Shown: positions 6,274 through 35,786, counted from the stretch's first letter. The stretch is 39,447 nucleotides of DNA from Chloroflexota bacterium (GCA_026707585.1 JAPOWQ010000042.1:1-39447); one strand, 5' to 3'. The notes: generated from the letters alone by a model not told the origin. Translations and numbers: made by a program.

Positions 6274-6349
6274 GGGCTGGTAGCTCAGTTGGCAGAGCAG
6301 CGGACTTTTAATCCGAAGGTCGTGGGTTCGAGACCCACCCGGCCCACCA
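6274..6349 (+). tRNA. tRNA-Lys (anticodon UUU)
   Basis: A 76-base cloverleaf with encoded CCA. The 7-bp acceptor (GGGCTGG with CCGGCCC) contains one G-T wobble. The loop CTTTTAA carries anticodon TTT on a GCGGA/TCCGA stem with one mismatch at its outer pair. The T arm contains GGTTCGAGACC. The gene marks the left edge of the accessory region: ordinary chromosomal genes end here and fragments, repeats and defence genes begin. This is typical of islands inserted at tRNA 3' ends, although no integrase or second copy of the tRNA 3' end was found in the window. Confidence 0.95.
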
Positions 6350-6735
6350 GGTTTGGGAAGCCCCTTTTGAGGGTCTCAGAAGTCGCCGGAAACGGCCGAT
6401 TGCCAACATTTTGCCAACATCCGCCAACATTTCTTCTAGGGCCTCGGCAGATTCAGGCCAAGTTGAAGCAGCATCTGCGGGTCGACGAGGTACGTCTCCG
6501 ACGGTGTCAGCCCGCTGCTCGGCAGGCGGCTGGACGCCGGGCTACACGTGGGCGTAGGTGCGAGCGTCTGCGTGATTCACGGCTAGCGCAACTGCTCGAG
6601 ACGCGCGACGGAGAGGCGTCGCCGTCAGCGAAGAGACTCTGCTCTCAGGGCCGTTTATGAGATGTCATCGACCAGTTGCAGGTCGTGCGCTAGGTAAGAC
6701 TCGACTCGGAGGTGGCGGCGCTCGCCGCCTGCGGG
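6350..6735. other. Gene-free junction after tRNA-Lys with GCCAACAT triplet repeat
   Basis: No convincing gene. The octamer GCCAACAT occurs three times at 6402, 6413 and 6423, spaced 11 and 10 bases apart. It sits about 50 bases after the tRNA and could be a binding-site array or part of an attachment region. The remaining sequence up to the helicase fragment has no recognisable product. Confidence 0.4.
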
Positions 6736-7652
6736 CCGGGGAGCGCCTGGCGGGCCGCCGGGTGCTGGTCTACGCCACGCACACGGGGACCCGGGACATT
6801 ACCGAACGGATGGACGACATCCTCATCCGGCACTGTTTCCACGTCGCCGTGATGAAGGCCGCCGCCGTGCCCCCGGAACGCCGCGAGGCGTGGGTGGCGC
6901 GGAAGGTCACAGCGGGCATCGATGTCCTGATTTGCCACACCCGACTAGTGCAGACCGGCCTCGATCTGGTGGACTTCCCCACGATCTGCTGGTATGAGGC
7001 CGACTACTCGGTCCGCACCATGCGGCAAGTCTCGCGCCGCTCGTGTCGCATCGGCCAAACCCGCCCGGTCAAGGTCGTGTTCTTCGCCTATCGGAACACC
7101 CTCCAGGCCGACGCGCTGAAGCTGGTGGCCAAGAAGCTGCAGAGCTCTCTGGCCGTCGAGGGGGAACTGCCCGAGGACGGCCTGGCCGCCTACGGCGACG
7201 ATGGCGACGACCTGCTGCTGGCGCTGGCCCGCCAGGTCGGCAACGGGGCGACGGACGGCGAGACCGTCGAGGATGTCTTCGCACAAGCCACAAGTGCCGC
7301 GGCCGCGGCCAAGGAGCTGCTGGTGGACGACGGCTGGCAGGCGGTTGAGGCAGAGCCGGAAGCCGTCGACGTCAACAGCAACGGCGTGACCGGCAACGGC
7401 CATCCCAAAGCCATAGGCCTCGGACCGAGCGTCGAGCCGGACCTGGGGAACTGTCACCATGCCAACGGTAACGGGCACCACCACAAGGGGTCGGCGCCGC
7501 GGCCATCGCTGTTCACCTGGGCAGAGTTCGTGGCGGAGGCTCCAGTCAAGTCCAGGGGCCGAAAGCGGAGGCCGCAGCCCGCTACGGCGTCTCTCTTCGA
7601 GTAGGCGTTGGAACAGGAGCGAGCCGTCGAGCCTGCCGGCTCAGCCGGATAA
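6657..7652 (+). pseudogene. SNF2-type helicase, C-terminal remnant with premature TAG
   Basis: Only the second RecA-like lobe and tail of a superfamily II helicase remain. Recognisable sequence starts near 6740. Motif V/VI-like segments are LVQTGLDLVDFP, then RQVSRRSCRIGQ with the arginine-finger region, then a variable tail with TWAEFVAEAPVK. The first lobe with Walker A and DEAH is missing, and the first ~28 codons after the ATG at 6657 look random. The open frame ends at TAG 7602-7604. Another copy of the same tail at 10.6 kb has TGG there (FEWALEQERA), so the ancestral frame probably ran on to TAA at 7650-7652. It seems to be a non-functional leftover of a mobile-element helicase. The call as SNF2 type is from motif order. 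Confidence 0.75.
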
Positions 7653-7757
7653 GACTATGGAGGATACGGAGGAGGCCATTGCGGCATCAGCGATGGCCTC
7701 CTCTGACTCTCCATGTATGGAGCTCATTCGCGTTTCGGGACCTACGCTCCCGCGTGC
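7501..7757 (+). repeat. Helicase-tail repeat, copy 1
   Basis: First of three related stretches. Each holds the codons for a W-A-E-F tail motif followed by an Arg/Lys-rich stretch, then a GAGG/CCTC hairpin, then a CATGTATG box. Homology to copy 2 continues roughly to GCTCCCGCGTGCG at the right end. This copy is still attached to the helicase remnant. The others are at 8314-8560 and 10465-10815. Confidence 0.7.
7669..7719 (+). terminator. Two-hairpin element, copy 1
   Basis: GAGGAGGCCAT (7669-7679) pairs perfectly with ATGGCCTCCTC (7693-7703), extendable by a wobble and two inner pairs. Nine bases later CTCCAT and ATGGAG form a second small hairpin around CATGTATG. There is no long T-run, so a terminator role is possible but not certain. 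Confidence 0.5.
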
Positions 7758-7991
7758 GATCTTTCTTGCTGTTCCGAAGTCCCGCAAACTGGAAGAACAG
7801 CAGTTGGAGGGGTACACCTTGAAACGGAGACGCATGAGAGACTTGGACGCCGCAGCGCCCACCCCTGCAGGGAACGGAAGGTGCAGGCGCGGTGTGGCAG
7901 TGGTTTCGCAAGCGACAGTGATCGACCCTGCGGGCTGCGTAGAGCATCTTCGGGTGCCAGTCCCGGGGCCACGATCTGATCGCCGTCGACA

Positions 7992-8267
7992 ATGAGGGGC
8001 GGACGCGTGACACCGCGAGGCACTGGCCCTTATCGCGTCTACGTGCACCGATCGGCGAGCCAGGCCAACGTCCATGCGGTCGGCTGCCCGTACCTTGGGC
8101 AGCATGGCGGGCTACAGCCAGGCCATCCGGAGAACTGCCGATACTCCGACCCCATCGCCACATTCGAGGATGCCTGGGAGTGGGCGTGGACGCGGAACAG
8201 GCGGGTGACGCACGCCTGCACGCGCTGCCTCCCCGACCGTGAGGACAACCGGTGGGTGACGCGCTGA
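7992..8267 (+). CDS. Small Cys/His-rich protein, 91 aa, function unknown
   Basis: A probable real gene because the pattern is ordered, not random: VHAVGCPYL near residues 27-35, a Trp-rich alpha segment (FEDAWEWAW) near 58-66, and CTRC near 75-78. Two cysteine-bearing ends separated by a helix are seen in small zinc-binding proteins that start with a His-x3-Cys-Pro-Tyr element. A GTG at 8007 is an alternative start. It is the only cargo between helicase-tail copies 1 and 2. No catalytic function can be assigned. Confidence 0.55.
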   Translation: MRGGRVTPRGTGPYRVYVHRSASQANVHAVGCPYLGQHGGLQPGHPENCRYSDPIATFEDAWEWAWTRNRRVTHACTRCLPDREDNRWVTR

Positions 8268-8313
8268 CCCTCGCCTCATGACCGCCTTCTGCCCCCTATG
8301 AGGTCGTGCCGTT

Positions 8314-8560
8314 TCTGCTCCTGTCTCCTGGGCGGAGTTCATGGCCGAGCCGTCGGCGAAGCCCACGAGCCGCCGCCGCACGGCTCAGGCCCTGGCGCTG
8401 TCCCTGTTCGAGCGAGTGTTGGATCGGGAGCCGGCGCGGCTCGGAGCGGGACGCTAGCTCCCAAACGTGGGGGAGGACACCAAATCCAGGTGACCTCTGC
8501 CGCACACTCATGTATGCGGCCATTTTGCCGTTCAGGCAATACTGCTCCCGTGCGGCCATG
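8314..8560 (+). repeat. Helicase-tail repeat, copy 2
   Basis: Reads SWAEFMAEPSAK, an Arg-rich stretch, then LSLFERVLDREPARLGAGR and stop, collinear with the end of the helicase remnant, followed by the paired hairpins. No helicase core precedes it, so it is a detached tail. At the codon where copy 1 has TAG, this copy has CGA. Confidence 0.65.
8473..8516 (+). terminator. Two-hairpin element, copy 2
   Basis: GAGGACACC (8473-8481) faces GGTGACCTC (8489-8497) with one A-A mismatch and a seven-base loop. CATGTATG follows 12 bases later (8509-8516). Sequence differs from the other copies but pairing is kept. Confidence 0.4.
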
Positions 8561-8654
8561 CTTGGGCCATGTGTGCGGGGACTCTTCGTTGCCGCGAGAC
8601 TCAGCGAAAGGGTAAGACGATATGTGTATGAGAACGCACTGAAAGGGAACGGCG

Positions 8655-8945
8655 ATGACGACCGCAGATCCCCCGGCGCGACAGCGCAGGCCCCGCGAAG
8701 AGGCAGCCCGCCTGGGCAGAGAGATATACGAGCGAGACTTCCTGCCGCAGGTCGAAGCCGGCCATCACGGTGAGTACGTCGCAATCGATGTTGAGACCGG
8801 GGATCGGGCAATAGCCGACAGTGAGAGTGGCGCAGCGGACCGTCTGAGAGCGCAGCGCCCCGGCGCTGTCGATGTCTTGGTCGAGTGAGTCGGGTACCGG
8901 GCGCTTCGCAGCTTCGGGGCCTGGTCGCTGCGGAGGAGGGAGTGA
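8655..8945 (+). pseudogene. Small partner of AA-clan protease, with premature TGA
   Basis: The open part gives 77 residues, with EIYERDFLPQVEAGHHGEYVAIDVETGDR in the middle. I recognise this as the short protein usually encoded just upstream of retropepsin-like proteases in bacteria. It stops at TGA 8886-8888, but the same frame continues with VGYRALRSFGAW, which fits the family's usual C-terminal VGYR(A/T)VH(x)FG, and ends at TGA 8943-8945. That end overlaps the protease GTG by the bases GTGA, the usual translational coupling. An Arg codon CGA changed to TGA explains the break. AAAGGGA lies upstream of the ATG. It may be an antitoxin-like partner, but that is unproven. Confidence 0.6.
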
Positions 8946-9313
8946 TCGTAGGGGCCGTGAATTCTGCCTATGAAGCGGTGTTGACCCTTCAGCTGTAGGG
9001 CCCGGAAGGGCGGACGCGCGACATCCAGACCGTTATCGACACCGGCTACACTGGCGCCTTGACGTTGCCGACCGCCGTGGTTGCTGCCTTGGGGTTGTTG
9101 TTTTCACACATGGGCCGGGCGTTCCTGGCAATCGATGACGTTGTGAGCTTCGATGTCCATGATGTGATCGTGTTCTGGGACGGCCAGCCGAGAAATATCA
9201 AGGCCGACCCGACCGGCAGCACCCCCACTGGTGGGATGTCCCTGCTCGACGGTCATGACGTGAGCATCCAGGTGCGTAACGGTGGGCGTGTCCTGATACA
9301 GGATGCCGCATAG
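8942..9313 (+). pseudogene. Retropepsin-like (clan AA) aspartic protease, with premature TAG
   Basis: A small single-domain aspartic protease of about 123 residues. Translation from GTG 8942 (GGAGG just upstream) gives the usual N-terminus, then TAG at 8996-8998 (codon 19) interrupts the first strand just before GPEGR. After the stop the frame continues with the catalytic VIDTGYTGALTLP (D-T-G), a second half with RAFLAIDDV and VFWDGQPR, and a C-terminal LLDGHDVSIQV. Everything except the stop matches an intact protein. A Trp, Gln or Arg codon is the likely original. It is coupled to the broken gene before it, so the pair appears inactivated twice. Confidence 0.7.
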
Positions 9314-9338
9314 CAATGCAAATCGCACGGCGGATCGG

Positions 9339-10364
9339 ATGAGCGAACGATTGGATGTCGCGTACTACTACCCCGCGCCCTATTGGGGCATGGGCGAAGG
9401 CGGCTGGGTGAAATCGCTGCTCCTGTTCTTCGATAAGGTGTCCATCCTGCTGCCGGACTATATGTACGGGCGGCACCGTCTCGCCGACCCCGTGTTGGCC
9501 GCGCCGCTTGAAGACCAGGGTCTGCTGGAAGTGCTCGAACCCAAGACGTGGATAGACCAAGAGACGGCGAAGAGACTGGCAGAGGCCGTCAGTGGCCTGC
9601 TTGCGAACGGCGTATTCGACGATCTTCCCAGAGCGGACCGTTTCCACGAATTGTCACAGTCCCGCATAGGCTACGGGGCCGACGTTGAACTTGCCGAGTC
9701 GTTGGTATCCGAACTCCGGAGGAAAGGGCTTGCTAAGCCTAGTGAGGATCGAGTCTCGATACCGCTGCACCCGACGGTACGCACGACCATTCTCGTCATC
9801 CTCGCTCAGCTTGCGCGTTCGGCAGGCAACAGGCAAGACCTGTCTGTCCACCCGGCAACCAATGACAGGCGTGCTTTTGAGGACCTGATCGATACTCTTT
9901 CGAGAGAGCGAATGCCATCGCGTGAGCGGGTAATCGCCTTCGACCTCGAACCCGTCAGCTTCGATTTGGATTCGGTGCCTCTTGACGAGCTCCTCCAGTT
10001 CCGAACCGAGAATCTGGCTGCACACCGAGCGTATGTGCGCGACCTGCGAGGGTTCATGGCTGAGCTTGCCGAGATAGACCTTGCCGAAGACAGAGAGTCC
10101 CTTCTCCTACAACGACGCCAGGAGATTTCCGATTCTGCTCACGAGCTCCAACGCTCTACTCGCAAAGCGTTCGGGAGGAACCTCCCCTCGTGGTCTTGCG
10201 GGCTTGCTGGAAGCGCTTGGTCGGTCGCCATGGGCGACATACTCGGCGCGGTGCTCTCAATATTGGGGCTAGTCTCAGGCATTGGCAGCTCTATAGGCGG
10301 CAACTCGAACCAGGTCACTGCCTACTCGTATCTGTTTCAAGTGGAACGTAGCTTTGCGCGCTGA
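9339..10364 (+). CDS. DUF6236-like protein of unknown function
   Basis: A 341-residue protein from ATG 9339 (an ATG 36 bases earlier lacks family-like sequence). The N-terminus DVAYYYPAPYWGMGEGGWVKSLLLFFDKVSILLPD resembles DUF6236 proteins, which begin with a YYP motif, then W(L/V)K and a conserved D-K/S-I-P stretch. The middle is helical and charged. Near the C-terminus there is a hydrophobic glycine-rich segment (about 290-320) that could be membrane-associated. It is cargo between tail copies 2 and 3. No enzymatic motif was seen. The family link is from memory and moderate. Confidence 0.55.
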   Translation: MSERLDVAYYYPAPYWGMGEGGWVKSLLLFFDKVSILLPDYMYGRHRLADPVLAAPLEDQGLLEVLEPKTWIDQETAKRLAEAVSGLLANGVFDDLPRADRFHELSQSRIGYGADVELAESLVSELRRKGLAKPSEDRVSIPLHPTVRTTILVILAQLARSAGNRQDLSVHPATNDRRAFEDLIDTLSRERMPSRERVIAFDLEPVSFDLDSVPLDELLQFRTENLAAHRAYVRDLRGFMAELAEIDLAEDRESLLLQRRQEISDSAHELQRSTRKAFGRNLPSWSCGLAGSAWSVAMGDILGAVLSILGLVSGIGSSIGGNSNQVTAYSYLFQVERSFAR

Positions 10365-10464
10365 ATCCACGCAGTTCACGTCTGCTTAAGTAGGCGTTCA
10401 TTTGCGGTTGCGCCTTCCGCTTGCGTCGAAACGGTCGGCAGAGCCAGCGAGGACGAAGGGCTAG

Positions 10465-10815
10465 GTGGTCGACCACGTCCTCCAGATACGCGGTGAGGCC
10501 TTGGCGGTCAATGGAAACGGGACCAATGGTCATCCCGACGAGGCCGAAGAAGGGCAGCCGTCGCTGTTGTCCTGGGCGGAGTTCATGGCTGAGGAGCCGG
10601 TGAAGCCGAAGCGCCGCAGCCGCAAGGCTCAGGCCCCGGCGCTGCCCCCGTTCGAGTGGGCATTGGAACAGGAGCGGGCACCAGTCGGCGCGGCCGAGTT
10701 AGGCTACTGTGGAAACGGAAGAGGCCATCGCTGTTTCCGTGATGGCCTCTTTCTACCTCCCATGTATGGGGCCAGTTTTGAGTTTCCGCCCCCTGCGGTC
10801 CCAGCCCCTACCAGG
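10465..10815 (+). repeat. Helicase-tail repeat, copy 3
   Basis: An open frame starting with VDHVLQIRGEAL, then ALAVNGNGTNGHP, SLLSWAEFMAEEPVKPKRRS and FEWALEQERAPVG matches the end of the helicase remnant at 7.3-7.65 kb over more than 70 codons, then the hairpins follow. The helicase core is absent. This copy has TGG at the position of the premature TAG in copy 1. It fills the interval between the DUF6236-like gene and the DUF499 stop. Confidence 0.7.
10719..10768 (+). terminator. Two-hairpin element, copy 3
   Basis: AAGAGGCCAT (10719-10728) pairs with ATGGCCTCTT (10742-10751), followed by TTC and, ten bases on, CCCATGTATGGG forming the second hairpin. GGAAAC/GTTTCC in the same place offers an alternative pairing. 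Compared with copy 1, stem bases differ in a compensating way. Confidence 0.5.
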
Positions 10816-10888: not shown

Positions 10889-13669
10889 TCAGGAGGTATC
10901 TACCGACACATGCTCTTGTAGTCCGAGATCAGTGAGGGCTTGCCGTAGCTCCAACTGAATGTTCTGGGCCAAGCCCGCATCGACGCTTACCGAGAACTCG
11001 ATGCCCACGCTCAGGTCGTCCCCGGAACGCAGCTTCGTCAGAACTCTCGTGCCAAGCCGGTTCCATACCTCCGGCGGGACGGTTCCCCTGACCGTGAGCG
11101 TCGCCTTCTGGCCTGTCGGTATGGGCAGCACGACTTGGGTTTCGCCAGAATCCGGCTCGGAAACCGGGGGGGTCTCGGTACCCGGGCTTGATTGGCCTCC
11201 CGGCTGCACCGGCTTCGTGTCATCGGCTGGGGCGCGGAGTCGCTCGGCCTTCGCTTTCGTCAGCAGAAAGACCCCTGACTCGAAGGCCACCTCGTCCGCT
11301 CCTACCAGCTCCCGGTACCACACGCGTTCGTATCCGCCGTCCCCCTTGTCGCCGGATGCCAAGCCAAAGTCGCCGACGCTCACGAAATCGAGAATCCGCC
11401 CCCGAAGCACGGCGTCGGGATCCATGAGGCGCGTCAGCGTTCCGTCCAGGAAGCTCTGGCGCAGACTGGTGAGCGGCCAGGCACCCGTGTCCTTGAACGC
11501 GGGGGGCCAATGCCGATCGATGTATCCGGCGCCCACGGACTCGTTGAGCAGTGCTCCCGATTTCAGCGCGTTCACAACGCGACCGCACAGTGTCTCGCTA
11601 CCGCTGGAATGGCCCGCGCCGAGGTCAATAACCTTCAATCCCGCCGGCGCTTGCCTGTCTCCCAGCGCCGCAAAGCGGTACCCGGCCCATACCTCGTCCC
11701 TCGCCGCCTCCTCCGCATCCCGGACTCTGGTCTGCACTTCGGCCCGGTTAGCCTGGTCGAACTCAGTGCCGAGGACGCCTTTCGACACTTCCTGGGCCAC
11801 CCGACGCCACGCGAGCCATAGTTCCACGCTCTCTCTCAGCTCGCGCCCCGGCTTTCTGGCGCACCAAACCAACGCTCCGGGGTAGAGCCGCGGGGAGTTC
11901 CCTCGTTCCCTGGTCCACCGGGCTATGCGCTCCGCCAGTTGGCCGTCTCCCGGCCACTCCTCCGCAGGATCGAGAACGACCAACGTCAGCCGCGGCGAAT
12001 CGTGCACCGCGTCGCCGTTCTCCGGGAAGTAGACAACCGGAACCGGCGCGCCCCGGGCGAACTCCTCCTGCACGACCTTCCGAACCGCAGGCTTGATCTC
12101 CCTTTCCTCGTCGAGCGAGGCGCGCCGGTCGCTGACGACCTTTCGCAGCGTGGCCTGATGGTGGATGCGGTAGCCGTCCGCGCCGACCGTCCGCATGAAG
12201 AAACCGGACTTCTCCAACGCTGTCGCGGCGCTGTCCACCGTCGTCGTCTCCACGTCCGGCTCACCGAGGGCGAAGCGCAACTCCGGCAGGTGGGCCACCT
12301 TGTCAAACTGCCCACCGGACGACTCGAACAGGATGGCGGTGCCAACCCTTCGGTGAATCTGGCGCAGCGCCCCCTTGGTGTCCACGTCAAGGGCACCGGC
12401 GTGGGACGCATCTCCGGCAACGTCCGCTTCGATGGCGGCGTCGAGCCGCTGTTCCCCCAACTGGCCGAGGACCACGGCCCGGAACTCTGGCACATGCAGC
12501 GGGGCGGAGCCTAAGGTGATCAGCGGCTCATTCCGCGCCTGCTGGAACTGCTCGCGCGACGCCCACGAAATCCACTGGGCCAGCATCGCCAGCGCACCGC
12601 GGGTCTGCTGGAACTGTGGGAGCGCCTGCCACTTCCGCTGAAACACCGAGAGCGTCGCCGGATGAAACGGATAGCAGGCCTCAAACCGGACCCGCAGGAA
12701 GTCTGGCGCCTTCGCGCCGCTGATCGCACTGTCCACGGCCGTCCACTCCGGGGGAAGACGCGCGCTTCGCTCGAAGCACCACTCCGCATAGGTTCTGGCG
12801 ATCCGTCGACGCGTGCGCACGCCGCCGAGATCATCGAACAGCCGTCGGCGCACCACCTCGCTAATCTCGGACTCGTCGTTCGCCATCAGGTCGCGGGCGA
12901 CGCGGCGCACGACCTTGGTGATGCGGTCCTGCCACTCCTGGTCCCACTGGGTCATCTCAATCTGGCTGCGGGGCAGGCTGATCACCGTCGCCACATGAGT
13001 CGCGCCCGTGACGGCGACGGTTAGATTCTGGAGGAAGGCGTGGAAGGAATCCGCCATGCCGCGGTGCCGGTTCACGAAATTCAGCGCCTCGTCGAACAGC
13101 AGCAATACCGGCGCGTTCGCCGCGGCGAACACCCGTGCCAACGCCTCGGTCCCGGGCGGCGTTGTCTCGGCGGCGCTGCCCAGGGCGGAAACGCCGGCGT
13201 CTCCGGCCAACTGCCGAGCCAGGTCGATCCAGGGTGTTTCCCGTCCCGGTGCGGGGTCCCAGGCGTTGCCGACGAAGACGCCGACGCGGGCGGCGGGTGC
13301 CTCGGAGACATTCGCCGCCCTAAGCAGATCCCCGACACCCGGCAACGAGTCGGCCTTGGGGCCGGCATTCGCGAGGTGGTACAGGGACGTGAGCGTGTGG
13401 GTCTTGCCGCCTCCGAACTGCGTGATTAACGTCAGGACCGGCGACGTGTTCTCTGTCCTACCGGAAAGCCTCCGCAGGACCATGCCAGAATGCTCCGTCA
13501 GCGCCCGGGTAAAGCAGGTGCGCGAGAAGAACTGCGCTGGACCGCTGTAGTCGGGGGGCGCCGTTCCCGCCACCACCTGCTCCAGAGCGATGGCGAACTC
13601 GTCCGGGCTAAAAGACCGCCCCTCGCGCACCTCCTGGCGCGGGGTTACGACCTTGTACCAGGCTTGCAT
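10889..13669 (-). CDS. DUF499 ATPase of a restriction-like defence cassette
   Basis: A 926-residue P-loop ATPase of the DUF499 (COG1483) family. Walker A is GGGKTH at 86-91 (TQFGGGKTHT) and Walker B is LLLFDE at 189-194, followed by ALNFVNRH; a large middle region and a Pro/Ser/Thr-rich linker near 825-850 lead to a C-terminal domain of about 75 residues. Family members occur with DUF1156 methyltransferases and SNF2 helicases in predicted anti-phage loci. Here it is the last gene of that operon, 25 bases after the PIN-like toxin gene. No premature stop. It probably supplies the ATP-driven step; the exact role is unknown. Confidence 0.9.
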   Translation of the reverse strand: MQAWYKVVTPRQEVREGRSFSPDEFAIALEQVVAGTAPPDYSGPAQFFSRTCFTRALTEHSGMVLRRLSGRTENTSPVLTLITQFGGGKTHTLTSLYHLANAGPKADSLPGVGDLLRAANVSEAPAARVGVFVGNAWDPAPGRETPWIDLARQLAGDAGVSALGSAAETTPPGTEALARVFAAANAPVLLLFDEALNFVNRHRGMADSFHAFLQNLTVAVTGATHVATVISLPRSQIEMTQWDQEWQDRITKVVRRVARDLMANDESEISEVVRRRLFDDLGGVRTRRRIARTYAEWCFERSARLPPEWTAVDSAISGAKAPDFLRVRFEACYPFHPATLSVFQRKWQALPQFQQTRGALAMLAQWISWASREQFQQARNEPLITLGSAPLHVPEFRAVVLGQLGEQRLDAAIEADVAGDASHAGALDVDTKGALRQIHRRVGTAILFESSGGQFDKVAHLPELRFALGEPDVETTTVDSAATALEKSGFFMRTVGADGYRIHHQATLRKVVSDRRASLDEEREIKPAVRKVVQEEFARGAPVPVVYFPENGDAVHDSPRLTLVVLDPAEEWPGDGQLAERIARWTRERGNSPRLYPGALVWCARKPGRELRESVELWLAWRRVAQEVSKGVLGTEFDQANRAEVQTRVRDAEEAARDEVWAGYRFAALGDRQAPAGLKVIDLGAGHSSGSETLCGRVVNALKSGALLNESVGAGYIDRHWPPAFKDTGAWPLTSLRQSFLDGTLTRLMDPDAVLRGRILDFVSVGDFGLASGDKGDGGYERVWYRELVGADEVAFESGVFLLTKAKAERLRAPADDTKPVQPGGQSSPGTETPPVSEPDSGETQVVLPIPTGQKATLTVRGTVPPEVWNRLGTRVLTKLRSGDDLSVGIEFSVSVDAGLAQNIQLELRQALTDLGLQEHVSVDTS

Positions 13670-13694
13670 CGTTATAACTCCGCCCTTCTGATTC

Positions 13695-14051
13695 TCAAGA
13701 TGGCGGCGGATGGGATATCCGGATTCGTCCGCCGCGCACTGTGACGACAGCTCGCTCTTCGAGTGCTTGATGGTGACCCTCGACTACTGCGCGAACTGCT
13801 TCGATTCGCTGGAGCACTCGAACATCGGGCAGGAGGATCAGTCCCGCGTGGGCAACTCGTCGCAGGTAGATCAGTTCTCCAAAGTCCTTGTCCATGGTGA
13901 CGAGAACCCGGTCTTCTGCTCCTGCTCGTTCCAGCAAAGCCCTGTCGCCTGGATCCGAGCCGAGGGTCTGGGCTTCAACAACGTCATGACCGTTGTGGCG
14001 CAACCACTCCGCCAGCTGCCGACCGGCGCATCGGTCGACCAGGAATCTCAC
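13695..14051 (-). CDS. DUF5615 PIN-like toxin
   Basis: 118 residues. DUF5615 proteins are PIN-like and usually act as the toxin with a DUF433 antitoxin. Visible acidic positions fit a nuclease: FLVD near residue 6, EAQTLGSDPGDRALLERA with D33 and D36, and VTMDKDFGEL with D53, D55 and nearby E58. The gene overlaps the end of the DUF433 gene by four bases (ATGA), so translation is coupled, and the antitoxin comes first as is usual. Its position between the methyltransferase and DUF499 genes is unusual and places it under the defence operon's promoter. Confidence 0.85.
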   Translation of the reverse strand: MRFLVDRCAGRQLAEWLRHNGHDVVEAQTLGSDPGDRALLERAGAEDRVLVTMDKDFGELIYLRRVAHAGLILLPDVRVLQRIEAVRAVVEGHHQALEERAVVTVRGGRIRISHPPPS

Positions 14052-14299
14052 GGCGCCGCCACTGAGACGGGCGCCAGGGTGTCGCCCGCGATTACCGTGT
14101 GGGCGTAGGCGATGCAGGCGCGAATGTCGTCCGGTTCCAGTCCGGGATAGTCATCCAGGAGTTCCTCGTGGGTGGCCCCCTGGCTCAGCAGGCTCAGCAC
14201 GAGTTCTACCGAGATCCGCATATCGCGGATGATGGGCTTTCCGCCAAAGACATCGGGACGTGCGGTGATCCGGCTGAGGAGTTCATGGTCGGTCGTCAT
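14048..14299 (-). CDS. DUF433 antitoxin
   Basis: 83 residues with the typical DUF433 core: ITARPDVFGGKPIIRDMRISVELVLSLLSQG, then THEELLDDYPGLEPDDIRACIAYA. DUF433 forms a winged helix-turn-helix-like fold and is commonly the antitoxin or regulator of PIN-like toxins. The start lies 16 bases after the stop of the DUF1156 methyltransferase gene; the gene overlaps the downstream DUF5615 toxin by four bases. It may autoregulate, but no operator can be seen because it lies inside an operon. Confidence 0.9.
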   Translation of the reverse strand: MTTDHELLSRITARPDVFGGKPIIRDMRISVELVLSLLSQGATHEELLDDYPGLEPDDIRACIAYAHTVIAGDTLAPVSVAAP

Positions 14300-14315
14300 C
14301 TCGTTCCTCCGTGCT

Positions 14316-17300
14316 TCATTGATTCGTCGATTGTCTCGGCATAGCGAGCAACATGGCGTCGAGCAGCCGCTTCTCCTCGCTGCCGCGCGGATAGAGGGCG
14401 GTCAGCGCGTTGGCGAGGCGCAGAAAGTCGGGGCTGCGCTCCTGTTCGGCCCACAGGAGGTTACGCAGAGCCTGGCTGCGGCCCGACGCCTGCAGCAGCA
14501 TGGCGGCGTGGACGCGATCCAGCGTGGTCGCCGACAACCCGATATCCGTGTCGCCGTCGGTCAGTGTCCATGACCTGCCGCGCCGCCGCGTCCGGCCCCG
14601 TATCGGCGGCGCGTCCTCCGGGAACAAGCGAAGCTGAGGATTGACATTTGCTGCCGATCCCATCTCGTCTGCAATCGCGCCCGCTCCAGACTCGCCGAAG
14701 AGCTGCTTGCCCCGCTCCGTGACGGGGAGCAGCCGCACCACGCCCTTCTTCGTCTCGATGATGCGCGATTCCCAGTCGTCCAGGTGGATGCCCAAGGGCT
14801 GGGCAAACCGCCGCGTCACGTCAAAGGGCAGGATGTATCGGGTTGCTCTTCTCCGCGGTGTTTCGCCGTCCGCTTCGTCATCGTCAGGCGCGGCCCCGTT
14901 GCCGCTTTCGTCCGACGTGCTTTGCACCGTCCACAGGAAGAGCGCGGTCAGGCGCGCGTCCTCCTCAAGTGCACCGGCGGCACCGTTGCGGGCCTGGGCC
15001 TCGGCAGTGCCCAGCACCTGCTCAAGCGCCTCGCGCCCAACGACCTCCCACACTTTTTCGAGGTACTCCGGCAGGCCAACCTCCCGGCCCTCAGCCGTCT
15101 CGACGGCGTGGTAGCGGCTGTAGATTTCCAACGCCGGGCCCACGCAAGCGAACACCAGGTCCGCGCCCCTGACGCCTTCACCCTGGAGTCGCTGCATCCA
15201 GTCCGCGACGCGCTCTGGCAGTTCTCCTAGTACGTCGGCCCAATCGCCAACCGGTGCAGCTTCTGGTCTTGGGCGGCAGACAAGATGGACGCTGGTGGCT
15301 AGAGCGGCCGAGTCTCTGGCCCTGAGCCGTGAGGCTGATTCAGTCGCAATTGGCCAGGAGCCGGTGATTGTCCAGCCACCCCGGATCATGCCAGAAAGCA
15401 ATGCTTCCCAACCCTCGGTTGTCTTGTGAGCGAAGACAACGGAACCCACACCTTCATTGCTAAGCACGCGATGGCCTTCGGCGAATGCCTCCGCTATCCT
15501 CTCCTCAAACCAACCTCGATCCTTCTGCCGACCACCCTCATGTTTGGTCTCGTCCTGTACGACTTCGCGTGTCTTGGGCGACAGTGGATTGCTGGCATCA
15601 ATGGAGCTCCGCAGCAAAAGACGGTCTGGCAAAGCACGCCTGATCCAGACGAGAAAAAAGTCCGAAAGGTCGGCATAAGGAACAGCGTCATAATAGGGTG
15701 GATCAGTGAACCAGAGATCTGCGGATTGGTGCGGCAAAGGACAGTCTGAAGCGTCCTCTTGCTGAACTTGGCCGTTCGACGAATTCTCAACGCGTCTTTC
15801 AATCACCTTAATCATCGTACCAAGCGTTGTTGCATAGTCACCGGCCTGCCCACCAAAGAAGCCGCCTTCTCCGAAGTCCCAGACCATCGGAATCGCCTGC
15901 CTAGTGAACAAGTTTCTCACCTGGGTCTTGCTGTTTTCCCATCGACAAAGGCTGTTCGATATATCTGCGAAACGACTGACACTTAATGCCAATACTGCGC
16001 GTGATTCTGGCGAGCAGGAGCTATCCGAAACCAGTCCAATCAACTTTGCTAATGCCGCCTTCTGACGCGCCGTGAAGAGGTCGCCCCACTGGAACATCCC
16101 GTACCGCTGTACACTGAATGCTCTACCCGCCCCTGAGCCGCCGCCCACAGGCGTTGGCTCATCCGGCACAGGGCATAGATCCTGCCTCCCGTCCCGTTCC
16201 CAGCCGTCCAGCAGTTCCGCGACGCGTGCGTGCGCCAAGCGAACCGCTACGTAGTCCGCGTCGGTGGGCAGCCGGTAGTGGCGGCCCCGCTCTCCGGGCT
16301 TGAGTATCGCCACCGCCGTCATGCGCGCGCCGCCGATGCGGGCGCCGTGCTCGTTGAACACAGCATCCGCTCCACCGCGCTGTGCGGCAAGCTGGGAGCG
16401 CAACCGGTCTGGCGGCAGCACAGCCTGGCAGCAGACGCAGGTCGCCCTGGCTCGCATGACAGTCCCAGAGGCAACCTCTCTATCGGACTCCGGCTCGAAA
16501 ATCTCGAACTCCACGCGAGTTGAGCTATCATCGCGCACCACCTTGGGGCGCAGCGCCCACTTGCGGCTGGGCTTCCGGCATAGCCACATCGAGCGCATCA
16601 ACGGGATTTCGGCGCCGCAATTCGGCGATTCGCATCGCACGGTTCGCGCCCAAAGGTAGGCGATGGGCGTGGCGCCGTCTGGGTCTGTGGGATAGAGGTC
16701 ACCCAGCTCTTCCTGCGCCTTGGCCTTGATCTCCGCCCCGGCCTTCCGCAACTCGCCGGCCAGCCCCGGGCCGTGGCGCGGGATGTCCTCCAGCATGACC
16801 TTGAGGATGAGGCAGGCGACGGGGTTGAGGTCGCTGGCGAAGGCCTCGCACCCCAATCGCAGCGCCTCCAACGGGATTGAGCCACCCCCCGCGAAGGGAT
16901 CGACTACCAGCGGCGTTTCCTCCGGGTGCGCGGCGCGCACCAACGCCCGGCCCGTCTGCAGGTAGTCGTCGTTTGCCGAGTTGTCCCAGTTGGCGAAGTC
17001 CGCGATGAACTTCAGCAGTATGCGCCGCAGCCCCTCGTCCGTCTTGACCTGCTCGTCCCACCCGCCGGGGCGGGTCCGCATCGCCAGCAGTATCTCCCGT
17101 GCACACGCCTTGAATGCCGGCGGACAATGCTCATCGCACGGGTCGGGCAACAACAGCGCCATCAGCACCGCCCGCGACGACGCCAACGGCCGCCGCGCCC
17201 ACCACAGATGCAGCGTCGATGGATGCCCATGCCGAATCGACTTTTCCCTCGCCGCATGCCGCGACACCTCAGCTATGGGGAATTCCACCTCCGCCAGGCG

Positions 17301-17321
17301 CTTGCAGGCGGCGGGTATCAT
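14316..17321 (-). CDS. DUF1156 adenine-type DNA methyltransferase
   Basis: A 1001-residue DNA methyltransferase of the DUF1156/COG1743 family. The N-terminal DUF1156 segment contains IRHGHPSTLHLWWARRPL near 29-46. SAM-binding motif I is DPFAGGGS at 141-148, with SDLNPVA at 163-169. A Zn-ribbon-like set of cysteines occurs at 230/235 and 295/297/298. The catalytic motif IV is DPPYYD at 540-545. The type (N6-adenine or N4-cytosine) is inferred from DPPY. Its start overlaps the RES gene by four bases. It likely marks host DNA or forms part of a phage-blocking complex with the helicase and DUF499 ATPase. The frame is intact. Confidence 0.93.
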   Translation of the reverse strand: MIPAACKRLAEVEFPIAEVSRHAAREKSIRHGHPSTLHLWWARRPLASSRAVLMALLLPDPCDEHCPPAFKACAREILLAMRTRPGGWDEQVKTDEGLRRILLKFIADFANWDNSANDDYLQTGRALVRAAHPEETPLVVDPFAGGGSIPLEALRLGCEAFASDLNPVACLILKVMLEDIPRHGPGLAGELRKAGAEIKAKAQEELGDLYPTDPDGATPIAYLWARTVRCESPNCGAEIPLMRSMWLCRKPSRKWALRPKVVRDDSSTRVEFEIFEPESDREVASGTVMRARATCVCCQAVLPPDRLRSQLAAQRGGADAVFNEHGARIGGARMTAVAILKPGERGRHYRLPTDADYVAVRLAHARVAELLDGWERDGRQDLCPVPDEPTPVGGGSGAGRAFSVQRYGMFQWGDLFTARQKAALAKLIGLVSDSSCSPESRAVLALSVSRFADISNSLCRWENSKTQVRNLFTRQAIPMVWDFGEGGFFGGQAGDYATTLGTMIKVIERRVENSSNGQVQQEDASDCPLPHQSADLWFTDPPYYDAVPYADLSDFFLVWIRRALPDRLLLRSSIDASNPLSPKTREVVQDETKHEGGRQKDRGWFEERIAEAFAEGHRVLSNEGVGSVVFAHKTTEGWEALLSGMIRGGWTITGSWPIATESASRLRARDSAALATSVHLVCRPRPEAAPVGDWADVLGELPERVADWMQRLQGEGVRGADLVFACVGPALEIYSRYHAVETAEGREVGLPEYLEKVWEVVGREALEQVLGTAEAQARNGAAGALEEDARLTALFLWTVQSTSDESGNGAAPDDDEADGETPRRRATRYILPFDVTRRFAQPLGIHLDDWESRIIETKKGVVRLLPVTERGKQLFGESGAGAIADEMGSAANVNPQLRLFPEDAPPIRGRTRRRGRSWTLTDGDTDIGLSATTLDRVHAAMLLQASGRSQALRNLLWAEQERSPDFLRLANALTALYPRGSEEKRLLDAMLLAMPRQSTNQ

Positions 17322-18331
17322 GGCGTGGCTCCATTGCCGTCCCGGCTAGGAGCAGGCTTTTTCTGGGCGATCCAAGGGAACACTTCCCGTTGTTTGGGAG
17401 AACCGATGTGGTAGTAGGCAAGGTCATTGCTGCCATCGCCTTTAGTTGCCACCATCCCCACGCTGAGCAATAGGCCCCTGTCGTCCATCCTGTTGACCTT
17501 GGCTATCTCCACGCCAATCAATCGCAGCTTCGTACGCATGTTGGGTCGGAATGCCACATTGAACTTTGTCTTGTCCACTATTGACGGGTAACACCAAGCG
17601 TCTTGCATCGCAGGCGGTAGATCGAAATAGTCCTTCGCGATGATCTCCGATATCCGGTATAGATACTCGGTTCCTCGTCCAACGTCACGAGTGAACTCGT
17701 CACGCAGGAATCCTTGGATCATCTCGATCTTGAGTGCGTCGTCGTTGTTGAGCCCTGTAATGTCAGGCTGGCCCCCTATGGTCGCGACGCTTATGTCTTT
17801 GACCGCCTCGTACAAGATCAGGCTGAACCACTCCCCTTCGGGGATTCTCAACTCACCAATGGCAACGGATGGATCCAATGGTGACGTATAGAGAATCGGT
17901 TCCCGCTCCTTGTTCAGCCTGCCTATGCGTATACACTCCCCAGGAGGCTCCCAGCAATCACTAACCTTAGACATCGACCGCAATGGGGTTATGTGATCTC
18001 CCTTTGGAATCCGTCTGACCCTATAGAACTTGGTTCCAGCTGGGTAGTTACCGCCATTGACCTGCAACACAGAGTGCGTTCCTAACGGCGTCTCAAACAT
18101 GATGACGCGACGGATGGCCTCTGAGACCTCTTGGTATGACATCTCACGGAAGTTGAGCTTCCTGAATTCCGATACGCGCCGATGAAGTTCTAGAGCGTCT
18201 ACGTGAGGCAGAAACGCCGACCTGAGTTCCTGCTGAAGTGCCTCAGGGGAATCTGCCACGTCAATTCCTAGGTTCCGAAGCGTGTGGAGAGCTAGCAACT
18301 TGTCGATAGCGCCACCCGATGTTAAGTCCAT
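17318..18331 (-). CDS. RES-domain protein (predicted NAD+-consuming toxin)
   Basis: 337 residues. The C-terminal two thirds show the RES pattern: YRVR at 103-106, GRLN at 137-140, LY at 147-148 followed by PLDPSVAIGE with E160, and WCYPSIVDKTKFNVAFRP with S250 and N258. RES proteins have an ADP-ribosyltransferase-like fold and several degrade NAD+, normally as toxins held by an Xre-type antitoxin. No Xre partner is present here. The first 95 residues are helical and not recognised, and may take the antitoxin's place or bind other operon products. Its ends overlap the helicase stop (TGATG) and the methyltransferase start (ATGA), so it is an integral operon member. Confidence 0.8.
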   Translation of the reverse strand: MDLTSGGAIDKLLALHTLRNLGIDVADSPEALQQELRSAFLPHVDALELHRRVSEFRKLNFREMSYQEVSEAIRRVIMFETPLGTHSVLQVNGGNYPAGTKFYRVRRIPKGDHITPLRSMSKVSDCWEPPGECIRIGRLNKEREPILYTSPLDPSVAIGELRIPEGEWFSLILYEAVKDISVATIGGQPDITGLNNDDALKIEMIQGFLRDEFTRDVGRGTEYLYRISEIIAKDYFDLPPAMQDAWCYPSIVDKTKFNVAFRPNMRTKLRLIGVEIAKVNRMDDRGLLLSVGMVATKGDGSNDLAYYHIGSPKQREVFPWIAQKKPAPSRDGNGATP

Positions 18332-21300
18332 CAGTCACCGTCGGTCCGATATTCTGCCGGCTCCTCCTGCACCATCATCGGCTGGGTCATGGCGTCCACT
18401 TCCAGCCAGTAGTGTTGGACCTTGCTCACCTCGTGCCAGGGGAACCGGGCAGGATCCTTGATGGGCTCTTGCAACTGGGGCTCGGCGGCGCAGTTGGTGA
18501 CGACATAGAGCCAATAGCAGTCGCGGCGGTCCTCGGCCACACGGCGCTCGTTGGGGGTCAACAGGATGGTTCCGGATTCAGCGGCGAGGCCCTTCACCTC
18601 AATCAGGCGTAGCTCCCCCGACTCCACATCAAGGCTGGTGACGTCGTAGCCCAGATTCTTCTCATGAACGTCGAAAACTTGCCTCCGCTGGGCCTTCTCG
18701 TGCTCCATCACCACCTGCATGGCGGTTGATTCTGTGTCGGGATTGGGTCGCAGGTGTCTCACGTCGGGAGCGTCTCGTTCGGGATGGGGCAGGACTAAGA
18801 CGCTGGCAAGCCGTTCGACGCCCTGCAGGGTGAGCGCCCGCTGCTGGGTCGACTCTCGCCGTCGCCGCTCCCGCCGGGCCATCGCTTCGTCATGTCGCGC
18901 GTCCGCCTGAGCCAGTCGCCCCTCGGCGCCGGTGATCTGTTTCTCCACGTCGTCCGAAGCACGGCCGATCTCTTGGTCGATGCGCTGCAGCACCTCGGTC
19001 AGCGATAGCTCAACGTGCTCGGCGATGCGGTCGATTTCGGTCACTCGTTCGGCCGTGACTTCTTCGATGAAGGGCGTGAATGCGTGCTCGTTCAGCCAGT
19101 CAGTCGCCTCCGGGAGTGACGTGACGGAGGGCAGATCGTCAGGATCCGCGTCGGCGGGGCTCAGATTGCCCAGGACGTCCGGCTCGCGGAGACGAGGAAG
19201 GGCGCCCTCGGCGAGCTCGACGGCGAACAGCCGCTCGTGGATGACGCGCCCCAGCCCGTCCACGACGCGGGCGCGGTAGAAGTCGATCCGCGCGGGAGTC
19301 TCGTGGTCGAGCGAATGGAAGCAGGCGCCCTTGGCAAAGGCGTCCTGGCCGGTTTCGAGGCAGTGACGCCGCAGAGCTTCAAATAGCGGATGGCCCGGCG
19401 TGACCCACTCCAGGTTGTGCTGCTCCGCTGTGTCCCTGTCCGCCGACAGACGGGGATAGCGAGCGACGAGATCGGGAAGGCTCCAGTCCGGCTCCCGTTC
19501 GTATCGCCTCAGCACCGTGGGCGTCCGACCCGGCTGGAACGTGTGGGACAGGCGGTACACCGGGTCGAGGGTCAACCCGACGTCCCGCGCGCTTTCGGAC
19601 ATAAAGCGGGCAATCGTCTCGGGCACGACCCGACGTTCCTGGGCACGAGCGCGGCGCTCCACCAGCATCTCGAGATTGAGCTTCTTTGCCGCCAGTCCTT
19701 CGAGTGCTGTCTGGCAGATCTCCCGAAAGCGCCCCTCGTCCACGTCACGCAGCAGCCGATCCTCTAAGTCTTCTTCTCCCAGCTTTCCCGCGTAGAATTC
19801 CCGGAGGATTCGCTCCATCTGGGCGGCGGGCAGGACCTCGCCGACTACGTTGAACACGGCGTCATCGTCGAGGGCGTCGCGAATCTCCTGAAGCTTGGAC
19901 AGCAGCCGTTGGAGCACCCGCCCCTCGATGGTGTTGGCGGCGACGAAGTTGAAGATGAGGCAGTCGAAGCGCTGACCGTAGCGGTGGATGCGGCCCATGC
20001 GTTGTTCGAGCCAGTTGGGGTTCCAGGGGATGTCGTAGTTGAAGAGGATGTGGCAGCACTGGAGGTTGATTCCTTCGCCAGCGGCCTCGGTAGCGACCAG
20101 AACCTGGATGTGGCCGTCCCTGAACTGCTGCTCGGCGTAGAGGCGCGTCCCCGGCTCGTCGCGCGAGCCTGGCCGCATTCCGCCGTGGATGGAACCAACG
20201 CGGAACCCCCAGGACTTCAGCCTCTCGACCAGGTAGTCGAGGGTGTCCTTGAACTCGGTGAAGATGAGCAACCGTTGGTCGGGGTCGTCGAAGAATCCCT
20301 GCTGCCGCATGATGTCGTTGAGGCGGGTGAGCTTGGCCTCCTGGCCTGTCGCCTCGACGGTCGCAGCCTGCTCTGCGAGCTGCCGGAGTTCGGCAATCTC
20401 CCTGCGAACCTCATCGGCGTTCCCGGCCAGCGTGATCGCCTCCAGCAACTGTTCGAGGCGCTCGCGCTCGGTGTCCTCCAACTCCTCCAGGTCCTCCCAG
20501 TCGGGTAGGTCCGGCGGCGCTGTCCTCGCAAGGTCCTGGGCTTGCTTGAGGCCCTCGTCCAGGCGGTTGGCCCGATTCTCCAGCGAGCGGCGCATGGCAT
20601 GGGCGCTGGAGGCGAGACGCCGCTGGTATAGCGACATGAGGAAGCCAACAGCGCGTGCTCGCGGGTCGTCGCCCTGGTCCGCGGCGCGGCGGCTCTGCCG
20701 CTTCACGAGCCGAGTAACCGCCAGATAAAGATTGAACTCCGGGCCATCCATCGTGAAGTCGGCGGTATTCGTGATGCGCTTGGTGAATACGGGCCTTGCT
20801 GCCCACGCGCCGTTCGGCTGGCGCTCCGGGAAGTAGACCATCGCCTCCTTGGTACGGCGCAGGTAGAAGGGCGCCCGCCTGCGGTCCATCGCCTTCCGAA
20901 TGGACGTCACGTCGGCGTAGGCGTCCTGGTCCAAGAGCTGGAGGAAGAGGGTGAAGTTGTGCGGGTCGCCCTTGTGCGGCGTGGCGGTCAGCAGCAGCAG
21001 GTTGTCGGCGCTGTCCCGCAGCAGCTCGCCCAGCCGGTAGCGCTGGCTCTTATGGGTCTCGTCTCGCGCCGACATGCGGTGCGCTTCGTCGACGATGACC
21101 AGGTCCCAGCGCACCTGCCGCAGACCGGGAAGGATGTCGTCCCGCTTGGCGAGGTCGAGTGACGTGATGACCTGCCGCTGTTCGAGCCATTGGTTGATGC
21201 CGAACTGATCCCGAATGTCGCTTCCCTTCAGGACGAAGAACCGCTCGTCGAACTTCTCCCGGAGCTCTCGCTGCCACTGAAAGGCCAGGTTCGCCGGGCA

Positions 21301-21822
21301 CACCACGAGCACTCGGTCGGCCAGGCCCCGCAGCTTGAGTTCCCGGACGAGGAGGCCGGCCATGATGGTCTTGCCGGCACCGGCGTCATCGGCAAGGAGG
21401 AACCGCACGCTGGGGAGCTTGAGCAGGTAGTCGTAGACGGCCTCCAGCTGGTGGGGCAACGGGTCGACCCGCGAGATGGATAGGCCAAAGTACGGATCGA
21501 ACTCGTGGGCGATGCCGAGGGCGTACGCCTGGAGGCCAAGTCGCAGGAGCCGTCCGTCGCCGTCGTAGGCGAGGGTGGAATCCGCGATGCTGAGGCTTGC
21601 GATGTCGGCCGCCGTCAGGGTCACGCGGCGGAATCGCTCCGTGCGCTGGCCGACCAGACCCGCGTCCACGGAGCCGATTCCGTTCGTCCGAACGGTCTCC
21701 ACCCGCATCGGCTCACTGAACTGCGGACCGGTCAGCACCTGCCCTTCGCGAATCACGGTTTCAGCGCTCACCTCTGTTCGGCCACCAACCACTGAGAAGA
21801 ACCTTCCGACCAGATAGGACAA
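18331..21822 (-). CDS. SNF2-family helicase with C-terminal DUF3883
   Basis: 1163 residues. An N-terminal region with GQVLTGPQFSEPMRVETV precedes the SNF2 motor: Walker A DDAGAGKT at 145-152, DEAH at 245-248, LTATPHKGD in motif III, and LVATEAAGEGINLQ plus RMGRIHRYGQ in lobe 2. A coiled-coil, charged region covers roughly 940-1010. The last ~110 residues are DUF3883, a PD-(D/E)XK-like fold, with EKNLGYDVTSLDVESGELRLIEVKG (E1075, K1077). This type opens predicted defence operons and resembles the SNF2 protein of class 1 DISARM only in general form. It is first in its operon; the 279 bases upstream hold no gene and must contain the promoter. Starts downstream, such as GTG 21771, are possible. 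Confidence 0.92.
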   Translation of the reverse strand: MSYLVGRFFSVVGGRTEVSAETVIREGQVLTGPQFSEPMRVETVRTNGIGSVDAGLVGQRTERFRRVTLTAADIASLSIADSTLAYDGDGRLLRLGLQAYALGIAHEFDPYFGLSISRVDPLPHQLEAVYDYLLKLPSVRFLLADDAGAGKTIMAGLLVRELKLRGLADRVLVVCPANLAFQWQRELREKFDERFFVLKGSDIRDQFGINQWLEQRQVITSLDLAKRDDILPGLRQVRWDLVIVDEAHRMSARDETHKSQRYRLGELLRDSADNLLLLTATPHKGDPHNFTLFLQLLDQDAYADVTSIRKAMDRRRAPFYLRRTKEAMVYFPERQPNGAWAARPVFTKRITNTADFTMDGPEFNLYLAVTRLVKRQSRRAADQGDDPRARAVGFLMSLYQRRLASSAHAMRRSLENRANRLDEGLKQAQDLARTAPPDLPDWEDLEELEDTERERLEQLLEAITLAGNADEVRREIAELRQLAEQAATVEATGQEAKLTRLNDIMRQQGFFDDPDQRLLIFTEFKDTLDYLVERLKSWGFRVGSIHGGMRPGSRDEPGTRLYAEQQFRDGHIQVLVATEAAGEGINLQCCHILFNYDIPWNPNWLEQRMGRIHRYGQRFDCLIFNFVAANTIEGRVLQRLLSKLQEIRDALDDDAVFNVVGEVLPAAQMERILREFYAGKLGEEDLEDRLLRDVDEGRFREICQTALEGLAAKKLNLEMLVERRARAQERRVVPETIARFMSESARDVGLTLDPVYRLSHTFQPGRTPTVLRRYEREPDWSLPDLVARYPRLSADRDTAEQHNLEWVTPGHPLFEALRRHCLETGQDAFAKGACFHSLDHETPARIDFYRARVVDGLGRVIHERLFAVELAEGALPRLREPDVLGNLSPADADPDDLPSVTSLPEATDWLNEHAFTPFIEEVTAERVTEIDRIAEHVELSLTEVLQRIDQEIGRASDDVEKQITGAEGRLAQADARHDEAMARRERRRRESTQQRALTLQGVERLASVLVLPHPERDAPDVRHLRPNPDTESTAMQVVMEHEKAQRRQVFDVHEKNLGYDVTSLDVESGELRLIEVKGLAAESGTILLTPNERRVAEDRRDCYWLYVVTNCAAEPQLQEPIKDPARFPWHEVSKVQHYWLEVDAMTQPMMVQEEPAEYRTDGD

Positions 21823-29165: not shown

Positions 29166-32296
<3,131 letters not shown>

Positions 32297-32300
<4 letters not shown>

Positions 32301-33625
32301 GACTTCCCGTTGAGCATGAAGGCCCAGGGCACATGCTGAATTGTTGGTCCCTGACCCGCCCTATTTTCTAGCCGGTTGACGTACCGGCCCGAATAGCCGA
32401 ATAGGTGCAGCAACATTAGCTCAATGTACCACTGTCCTAAGCTCTGAACTTCGGCGTAGGCCTCTACCGGAACTAACCCAAGCTTGGCTTTGGAGTGAAC
32501 TAAATCATTTCGCATTTCCACGAAGGCGTGCGGGCCATGCGCCCAACTACGCCGCTGAGCAAGCGCTATCAGCGCCGAGCATTGTAAAGGGATATGCGGA
32601 TCGATTCGAGCCTCCTTGAGGGCGGCCGCGATCCGGTCTCCTGTGGCACCTGCTCCTTGATCTTTTTTCGCGTGACTCAATCGCTCAAGAGCTGCCTGAG
32701 TGAGGATGATGCCGACAGCGGGCTCGCTGCTTTCATTGCTCCGCAGGTACCAACGGAGGACCTGTGACATGGTATCGCTCCATACAGGATCGGTGAATCG
32801 CTGCCAGAACCCACCAAACACGGCCGATAGCATCTCACTTTCTCCTTGACACACCCAAGTCGATAGTGGGCCGTGCCAAGGTTCGACTTCTCGGGTTCCC
32901 CACTGCTTCCATACCGTTTTCCGTTGGGAATCTTGACCTGACAAGAACCCGATCCCGCAGTACGAACCACGCACGAAAGATAAGAACAAATGCAACGCGT
33001 CCAGAATGACCTCAAGTTCTTCAAGTGTGAAGCCGCTCCCGTCAGTTCTCGCAACGCATCCTGCATGAGTGATTGCTGACCCCCCGATCCTCCTCATCTG
33101 ATAATCCAAGCTCATCACGGCATCGACACCCGTCAACTCAATCGACCACGGGTCAGCGTGCAATCGAATTCGCTGAACAATAATGCTACTACTGTCACTC
33201 GTAGGTCGGTGTATGTCGTGAGCACCCCAAAGACTTGGAAAATTGATCAAGGCGAACTTGCAGCGATATATGCGCGCGGGTTCATTGAGGGCTGTCACGG
33301 GCTGCGTGGCGGGAATGAGCATTCCGCCACACCAACTGTCGCGACCGCCAATCCGCCACTCACCCCCGACTAATGTTCGTATGCTCGCGCCAGTTGAGAT
33401 CCGAATGTCAAGGTAGTGCTTAGTTTGGATCTGGTTCGACGCGTTGTACGCAGTTGCCTGATCGTGCGTACTTCTAGGGAAATCGAACTCAATGACTACG
33501 CGGGGGCGTGGCGCGAGCCGTAGTACTATCTTGGCACGAGCCGTTACCGAATTGCCATCCAATGGTAATTCGGCGGTGGTTCTCGCGAGAACAATGGCTC
33601 TGTCTATTCTCTCGGCTATCTTCAC
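32297..33625 (-). CDS. HEPN-motif protein (predicted RNase effector), 442 aa
   Basis: Not a standard type I subunit. The C-terminal 130 residues are helical and contain [14 protein letters not shown], in which R372-x4-H377 is the catalytic HEPN motif of many prokaryotic RNase toxins. Before it lies a helix with [16 protein letters not shown], as in ApeA-type HEPN proteins. The N-terminal 200 residues look beta-rich and are unidentified; they may sense phage. It starts with GTG in the sequence GTGA overlapping the hsdS stop and ends overlapping the hsdR start by ATGA, so it is co-translated with both. It may cut RNA when restriction fails, an inference from motif and place. Confidence 0.7.
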
Positions 33626-35644: not shown

Positions 35645-35660
35645 CAGAAATCCCCCAAGT

Positions 35661-35735
35661 CCCAAACCCCGACCGCGTCAGGATCTCCTCAATCGCTGCG
35701 TCCATCTGATGGGCCTCGGCAGGATGTTCCCGCCA
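35661..35735 (-). pseudogene. hsdM 3'-end remnant
   Basis: 25 codons reading WREHPAEAHQMDAAIEEIL and SGFG match the extreme C-terminus of the local HsdM ([24 protein letters not shown]). The rest of that hsdM is absent. It directly precedes the HepT-like gene, which suggests the HEPN/MNT-HsdS genes once followed another hsdM that was lost. Confidence 0.65.
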
Positions 35736-35786
35736 TCGGACCGCTGTGGTTGGCACGGCTCCTCTTGCACGACTGAGCAGGCCTGC

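Follow-up and report, generated by a model that had tools for sequence, protein, structure and literature searches.

Introduction

Composite SCC and SCCmec cassettes combine a Ccr-type recombinase, insertion at the 3' end of a gene and the arrangement of cassettes in tandem. In Dehalococcoides, islands described as integrative and mobilizable target the ssrA gene with a 20-bp direct repeat, and carry at their left edge a CcrB-like serine recombinase gene on the reverse strand, the 3' end of which overlaps attL (PMC3146451). These islands occur in tandem with varied cargo and a short motif beside each boundary, and those that lack an integrase have been read as cis-mobilizable elements (PMC3146451). 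In the tandem accretion of ICEs, IMEs and CIMEs, elements insert successively at the end of a gene and decay to ends and cargo (PMC5704250).

Here, we analysed a stretch of 39,447 nucleotides from a Chloroflexota bacterium (GCA_026707585.1, JAPOWQ010000042.1:1-39447), called the window throughout. The elements to which we relate it are from the same class as the Dehalococcoides islands by record titles, and their arrangement of recombinase and tRNA is close to that described. However, they target several tRNA genes rather than ssrA with its 20-bp repeat, no right-end repeat was found in those with a large serine recombinase (LSR), their right-end site is 28 nt long with at most TTCAG in common with the published 15-bp motif, and they carry a T4SS, a primase-like gene, SSBs, DUF6094, a helicase and sometimes PRTRC genes. 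The reduction of elements to ends and cargo recalls ICE/IME/CIME accretion, with the difference that the right end here keeps a truncated gene tail and a hairpin, and that the site also occurs alone. A Ccr-type recombinase, insertion at gene 3' ends and tandem units are shared with SCC cassettes, from which conjugation genes and tRNA targets set the present elements apart. Integron arrays are similar in that short directional sites, with small cargo units between them, follow a fixed core, but the arrays here are very short, and the consensus of the site, CATGTRTGCGGCCYTTTTTGCGTTTMAG, contains no attC core (GTTRRRY/RYYYAAC).

Results

Three helicase tails in the window

The first tail, T1, is the 3' end of an ORF at 6657-7604 and represents the C-terminal part of a helicase of ~770 aa (Helicase_C, ResIII), which is intact in other genomes. 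The helicase remnant (6729..7604, plus strand) starts at residue 473 of an intact homologue, having lost the N-terminal ~470 residues, and a Trp-to-stop change lies inside its tail; the T1 copy (7499..7639, plus strand) comprises the coding tail at 7499-7604 and the continuation beyond this premature stop. T2 (8326..8459) corresponds to helicase residues 735-777 and T3 (10510..10707) to residues 716-775, both on the plus strand. Ungapped nucleotide identity to T2 over 124 nt was 99/124 (80%) for T3 and 75/124 (60%) for T1, against 56/124 at the best place outside the tails in the 39-kb window and a window mean of 35 +/- 5.4. BLASTN aligned T1 with T3 at an E value of 6e-23, and T2 with T3 at 3e-26. 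The three collinear tails of the original prediction were therefore borne out, and the hairpins predicted behind them were also present on the plus strand, at 7655..7718 past T1 (z -6.1 for segment 7655-7725), 8466..8503 past T2 (z -3.5 for 8440-8505) and 10710..10757 past T3 (z -4.6 for 10700-10762).

Among 84,980 species genomes scanned, 159 relatives of the helicase were found; the 80 that we retained come almost entirely from MAGs with Dehalococcoidia, SAR202 or Chloroflexi in their titles. Intact copies of ~770 aa were found at dozens of loci in MAGs of Dehalococcoidia type, a genome often having several, and viral contigs held distant relatives only, at no more than 43% identity. The QxSLF of the W-A-E-F tail occupies a place similar to that of the QLRLF- or QLALF-like C-terminal peptides found outside the W-A-E-F clade. 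Judged by the motif, both kinds of end look like sliding-clamp-binding peptides, and the QxSLF tail is probably such a peptide, with no role in recombination. A more distant member of the phylum encodes a methyltransferase-like domain fused to the helicase in a protein of 1148 aa (L034:6320-9766), which ends in a clamp-motif-like peptide.

The tRNA-Lys island and its cargo

A genomic island begins at a tRNA-Lys(TTT) gene, its target (6274..6349, plus strand; ARAGORN, Rfam), and holds T1-T3 followed by an Hma-type system. An att repeat of ~48 bp, formed by the tRNA 3' half, lies at 6302..6350 (plus strand) with its right copy at G000:C9:72401-72353; the assembly leaves the contigs between the window and C9 unjoined. 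Empty sites, with both flanks contiguous, were seen in the sister genomes G004, G008, G011 and G012. The island has a tyrosine integrase and a xis-like gene, also present in G013 and G016 (from Pfam matches of the G013 homologue), and a search of the window for an LSR gave none. Direct repeats of GCCAACAT follow the tRNA-Lys gene in G000, G001 and G013 (window 6350-6440; L051; L060), and resemble arm sites of the tyrosine integrase. An Rfam search of 5.3-11.5 kb returned the tRNA only. Right ends of the units in the window were found, and left ends were not.

The genes predicted between the tails were present, with one of them disrupted. A Cys/His-containing ORF of 91 aa (7992..8267), without relatives in the fetched loci, lies between T1 and T2. 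It is followed beyond T2 by p77 (8655..8888), the first gene of a recurrent protease pair; by an aspartic-protease-like pseudogene (8942..9313), the frame of which is broken by an in-frame TAG; and by an ORF of 353 aa (9303..10364), all on the plus strand. A relative of the protease (L025:10279-10647) gave a weak match to Asp_protease_2, below the cut-off. Neither the 91-aa ORF nor p77 matched a Pfam family at E<=1, and at the same threshold Pfam lent no support to the label 'DUF6236-like' given earlier to the 353-aa ORF. Genes similar to p77 have a comparable position behind the site described below in G012, G001, G015 (twice), L112 and L117.

Past T3, PADLOC identified an Hma-type defence system on the minus strand (10889..21822), consisting of HmaC (10889-13669, E 4e-90), HmaB (14316-17321, E 2e-122) and HmaA (18331-21822, E 7e-171). 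Homologues, by sequence, of the DUF499 and DUF1156 genes also lie behind the tail in G016 (L028). The gap between HmaC and HmaB (13695-14299) contains two small minus-strand genes that by eye resemble a PIN-like/DUF433-like toxin-antitoxin pair, and a similar pair of small genes separates the corresponding genes of G016. Type I restriction genes (R, S and M-like) occupy 29166-37821 of the window, with R and M each split into two ORFs, and an R-subunit-like fragment recurs near 23.1 kb.

ICE-like elements in related genomes

In type-ii elements, the conserved core ends with the helicase gene. In one genome, G034, a 9.3-kb core (primase-like gene, DUF6094-like gene and helicase) occurs three times, with identical start and stop points, sharp borders on the left and right and three different downstream regions. 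Among pairs of type-ii elements with similarity up to the right end, this similarity was lost 77-102 nt past the helicase stop, the exception being an overlap-like pair (L126/L124) with near-identical flanks, in which it continued. This sharp loss falls at a 28-nt site, which begins about 40-85 nt past the same stop. In PRTRC-bearing elements, the PRTRC genes lie behind the helicase, which is a near-last core gene, and the site is mostly found at +4.55 to +4.7 kb; the gene before it ends in QTLRLF.

The elements encode a DUF6094-like family along with the T4SS ATPase and coupling protein expected of an ICE, represented by VirB4-like and coupling-protein-like families. Matches to P-loop_TraG, TrwB_AAD_bind and TrbL/VirB6 exceed the Pfam cut-offs, and a match to the CD1110-like VirB4 model (E 2e-68) is below the NCBIfam cut-off. 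A site-specific recombinase is provided at the left end by the LSR, with Resolvase, Recombinase and Zn_ribbon_recom domains; it is related to CcrB/XisF, with an E value of 2e-38 to the NCBIfam CcrB model that is far below the cut-off of that model. The 3' end of the LSR gene abuts the 3' CCA end of a tRNA gene: CCA is followed directly by the LSR gene in G070 (tRNA-Ile, tRNA-Val), G078 and G062 (tRNA-Ala) and G068 (tRNA-Ile), and the two genes overlap in L032 and L107. We therefore class these elements, on gene content, as a putative ICE-like family of conjugation type in Dehalococcoidia-type bacteria. Two serine recombinase genes stand in tandem downstream of one tRNA-Ile in G070 (G070:C1:923001-1020000, 17.6-35.3 kb), which amounts to a stack of two left ends at a single tRNA.

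A direct repeat of the tRNA 3' end was looked for at the right end of LSR elements and none was found, and a search of relatives for syntenic empty sites, based on the tRNA-Met/Val pair in G070 and on right-hand flanking DNA from G062 and G067, returned none; the 28-mer is therefore a candidate attR only. Several elements have, a few kb downstream, a gene for a GAF-domain sensor (L259-L262 in G070, L267-L268 in G080); its copies are up to 94% identical and adjoin very long surface-protein-like genes. The GAF gene was considered as the true right boundary and dropped because it belongs to a repeated gene family.

The 28-nt site

A position-weight matrix (PWM) was built on element ends. In the window, strong sites lie past T2 (8509..8536; PWM 30.3/25.5) and T3 (10761..10788; PWM 24.8/27.2), and a degenerate one past T1 (7712..7739; PWM 10.5), all on the plus strand. 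At a score of 10, a scan of 352 kb, covering element ends with their surroundings and downstream DNA, gave 28 matches in the forward direction, none in reverse and one after shuffling; the matrix was trained partly on the loci scored, so that weight is placed on the one-way orientation and the secondary positions and not on the presence of the site at primary ends. With up to 3 mismatches, 12 whole genomes contained 12 matches, and the reversed control gave 0. Most were at known element ends, and those of the rest that were checked lay next to another helicase tail or no more than 10 kb downstream.

At the 25 primary sites, the hairpin positions upstream are conserved as well. The 16 secondary sites have only the 28 nt in common, with conservation at background on both sides. 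All copies have one orientation, with neighbouring genes in either direction, and those downstream often have no helicase tail; G070 has, 9 kb downstream of the first, a solo tail from the other terminal gene, again with a site. An array is short, with 1-4 sites, and neighbouring sites are separated by one gene or a few (L110, L092, G079, G083). The helicase tail itself was rejected as a recombination site, since the same 28 nt trail another gene in PRTRC elements and also occur alone.

Comparison of related genomes, the check proposed for the original prediction, showed that homologous tails are followed by different cargo. Genes past the site include SIR2, CD-NTase and patatin genes or a DEAD-helicase gene (both in G034), a PLD-domain gene (G067) and zinc-transport genes (L123), and the defence types represented are CBASS, SIR2, PLD nuclease and Hma. 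A CD-NTase/patatin pair is flanked by two sites in G079. The site of T2 starts a unit that is repeated in G015, where the second unit extends precisely from the site to the protease stop, has no helicase tail and is 87% identical to 8509-9314 of the window; this tandem of site, p77 and protease (L031:8009-9885) has the clearest unit boundary. The PLD gene beyond the site is common to G067 and G078, and since some cargo is thus shared between different genomes, the mobile unit may extend past the 28 nt.

Discussion

A short common DNA site just past the tail marks the junction with cargo in many related genomes. The original prediction had cargo recombining at the conserved W-A-E-F tail of a helicase gene that acts as a fixed anchor, and it is partly supported: the pattern is real and homologous tails do precede different cargo, but the gene that the tail closes is the 3'-terminal one of a mobile element, and the point that recurs is the 28-nt non-coding site past the hairpin, at the end of that element.

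We consider it likely that T1-T3 represent right ends, now decayed, of members of the ICE-like family, which accumulated inside the tRNA-Lys island. Elements and their deleted derivatives would have inserted side by side, internal deletions would leave only the right ends, and the p77/protease genes, the 353-aa ORF and the Hma system would be leftovers of the elements or genes carried beyond them. Stacked, worn ends of this kind would account for the unrelated genes between the tails. The 28-nt site is probably a recombinase-recognised end, i.e. an attachment half-site, that may recombine, and the enzyme acting on it would most likely be the CcrB/XisF-like serine recombinase. The left truncations are ragged (residues 473, 735 and 716 for T1, T2 and T3) and the right ends are kept, as is also seen in other genomes, where 5'-truncated solo tails of the same sort occur. 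As expected of elements in tandem with a common end, the right ends are repeated in one orientation. In G016, a recombinase zinc-ribbon-like stretch joined to the helicase C-terminus is best read as an internal deletion product. In the tail tree, T1 groups with G012 and G015, T2 with G001 and G016 (support 95), and T3 is next to those (78); T1 is closer to the helicases of G012 and G015 (85%) than to T2 or T3, and the helicase remnant has 84% amino-acid identity to the G012 copy. The tails are thus remnants of at least two, and probably three, separate elements. Accretion and decay of elements, as in the Dehalococcoides ssrA islands, is the best reading. Simple decay of tails does not by itself explain the solo sites without a tail.

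These sites bear on a possible, although unlikely, alternative, in which units of a site plus genes are inserted at the 28-nt site behind a fixed core end, somewhat as in integrons or SCC composites. The secondary sites with flanks at background, the tailless second unit of G015, the few genes between sites and the constant orientation all argue for such entry. Against it, T2 and T3 bring ~43-60 helicase codons that pure entry at the site would not be expected to carry, the arrays do not exceed four sites, and neither an excised unit nor a dedicated recombinase was seen. Bare sites between cargo in related genomes leave room for cassette-like entry. Its fullest form, with no relation to integrons, makes the site a dedicated, directional entry point of a Chloroflexota ICE family, where site-specific recombination adds one gene or an entire defence operon at a time, each with its site; this appears doubtful to us.

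It is improbable that the 28 nt are a transcription signal (terminator or promoter) at gene ends, with the cargo pattern arising from ordinary homologous recombination and deletion. Primary sites do trail a terminator-like hairpin and contain a T-run, but the secondary copies have no hairpin, the motif keeps one direction beside genes of either direction, and the matches in the whole genomes searched lie only near element ends, with none for the reversed pattern. A tandem duplication confined to this genome, in which the helicase 3' end was copied and then diverged and received unrelated genes, was rejected as highly improbable despite the common orientation, close spacing and mere three copies, as the tree and identities place the tails with helicases of other genomes and not closest to each other, and the different cargo behind the same tails in many genomes excludes a purely local event.

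Decayed right ends of ICE-like elements, our preferred reading, link parts that a limited full-text search of the literature did not find joined in any paper. The analysis identifies a mobile-element family of Dehalococcoidia-type bacteria, with a 28-nt signature for its ends, and places defence systems (CBASS, SIR2, Hma and PLD nucleases) directly behind the element end. If the site recombines, it would offer a simple handle on the swapping of defence genes in bacteria that are hard to culture.
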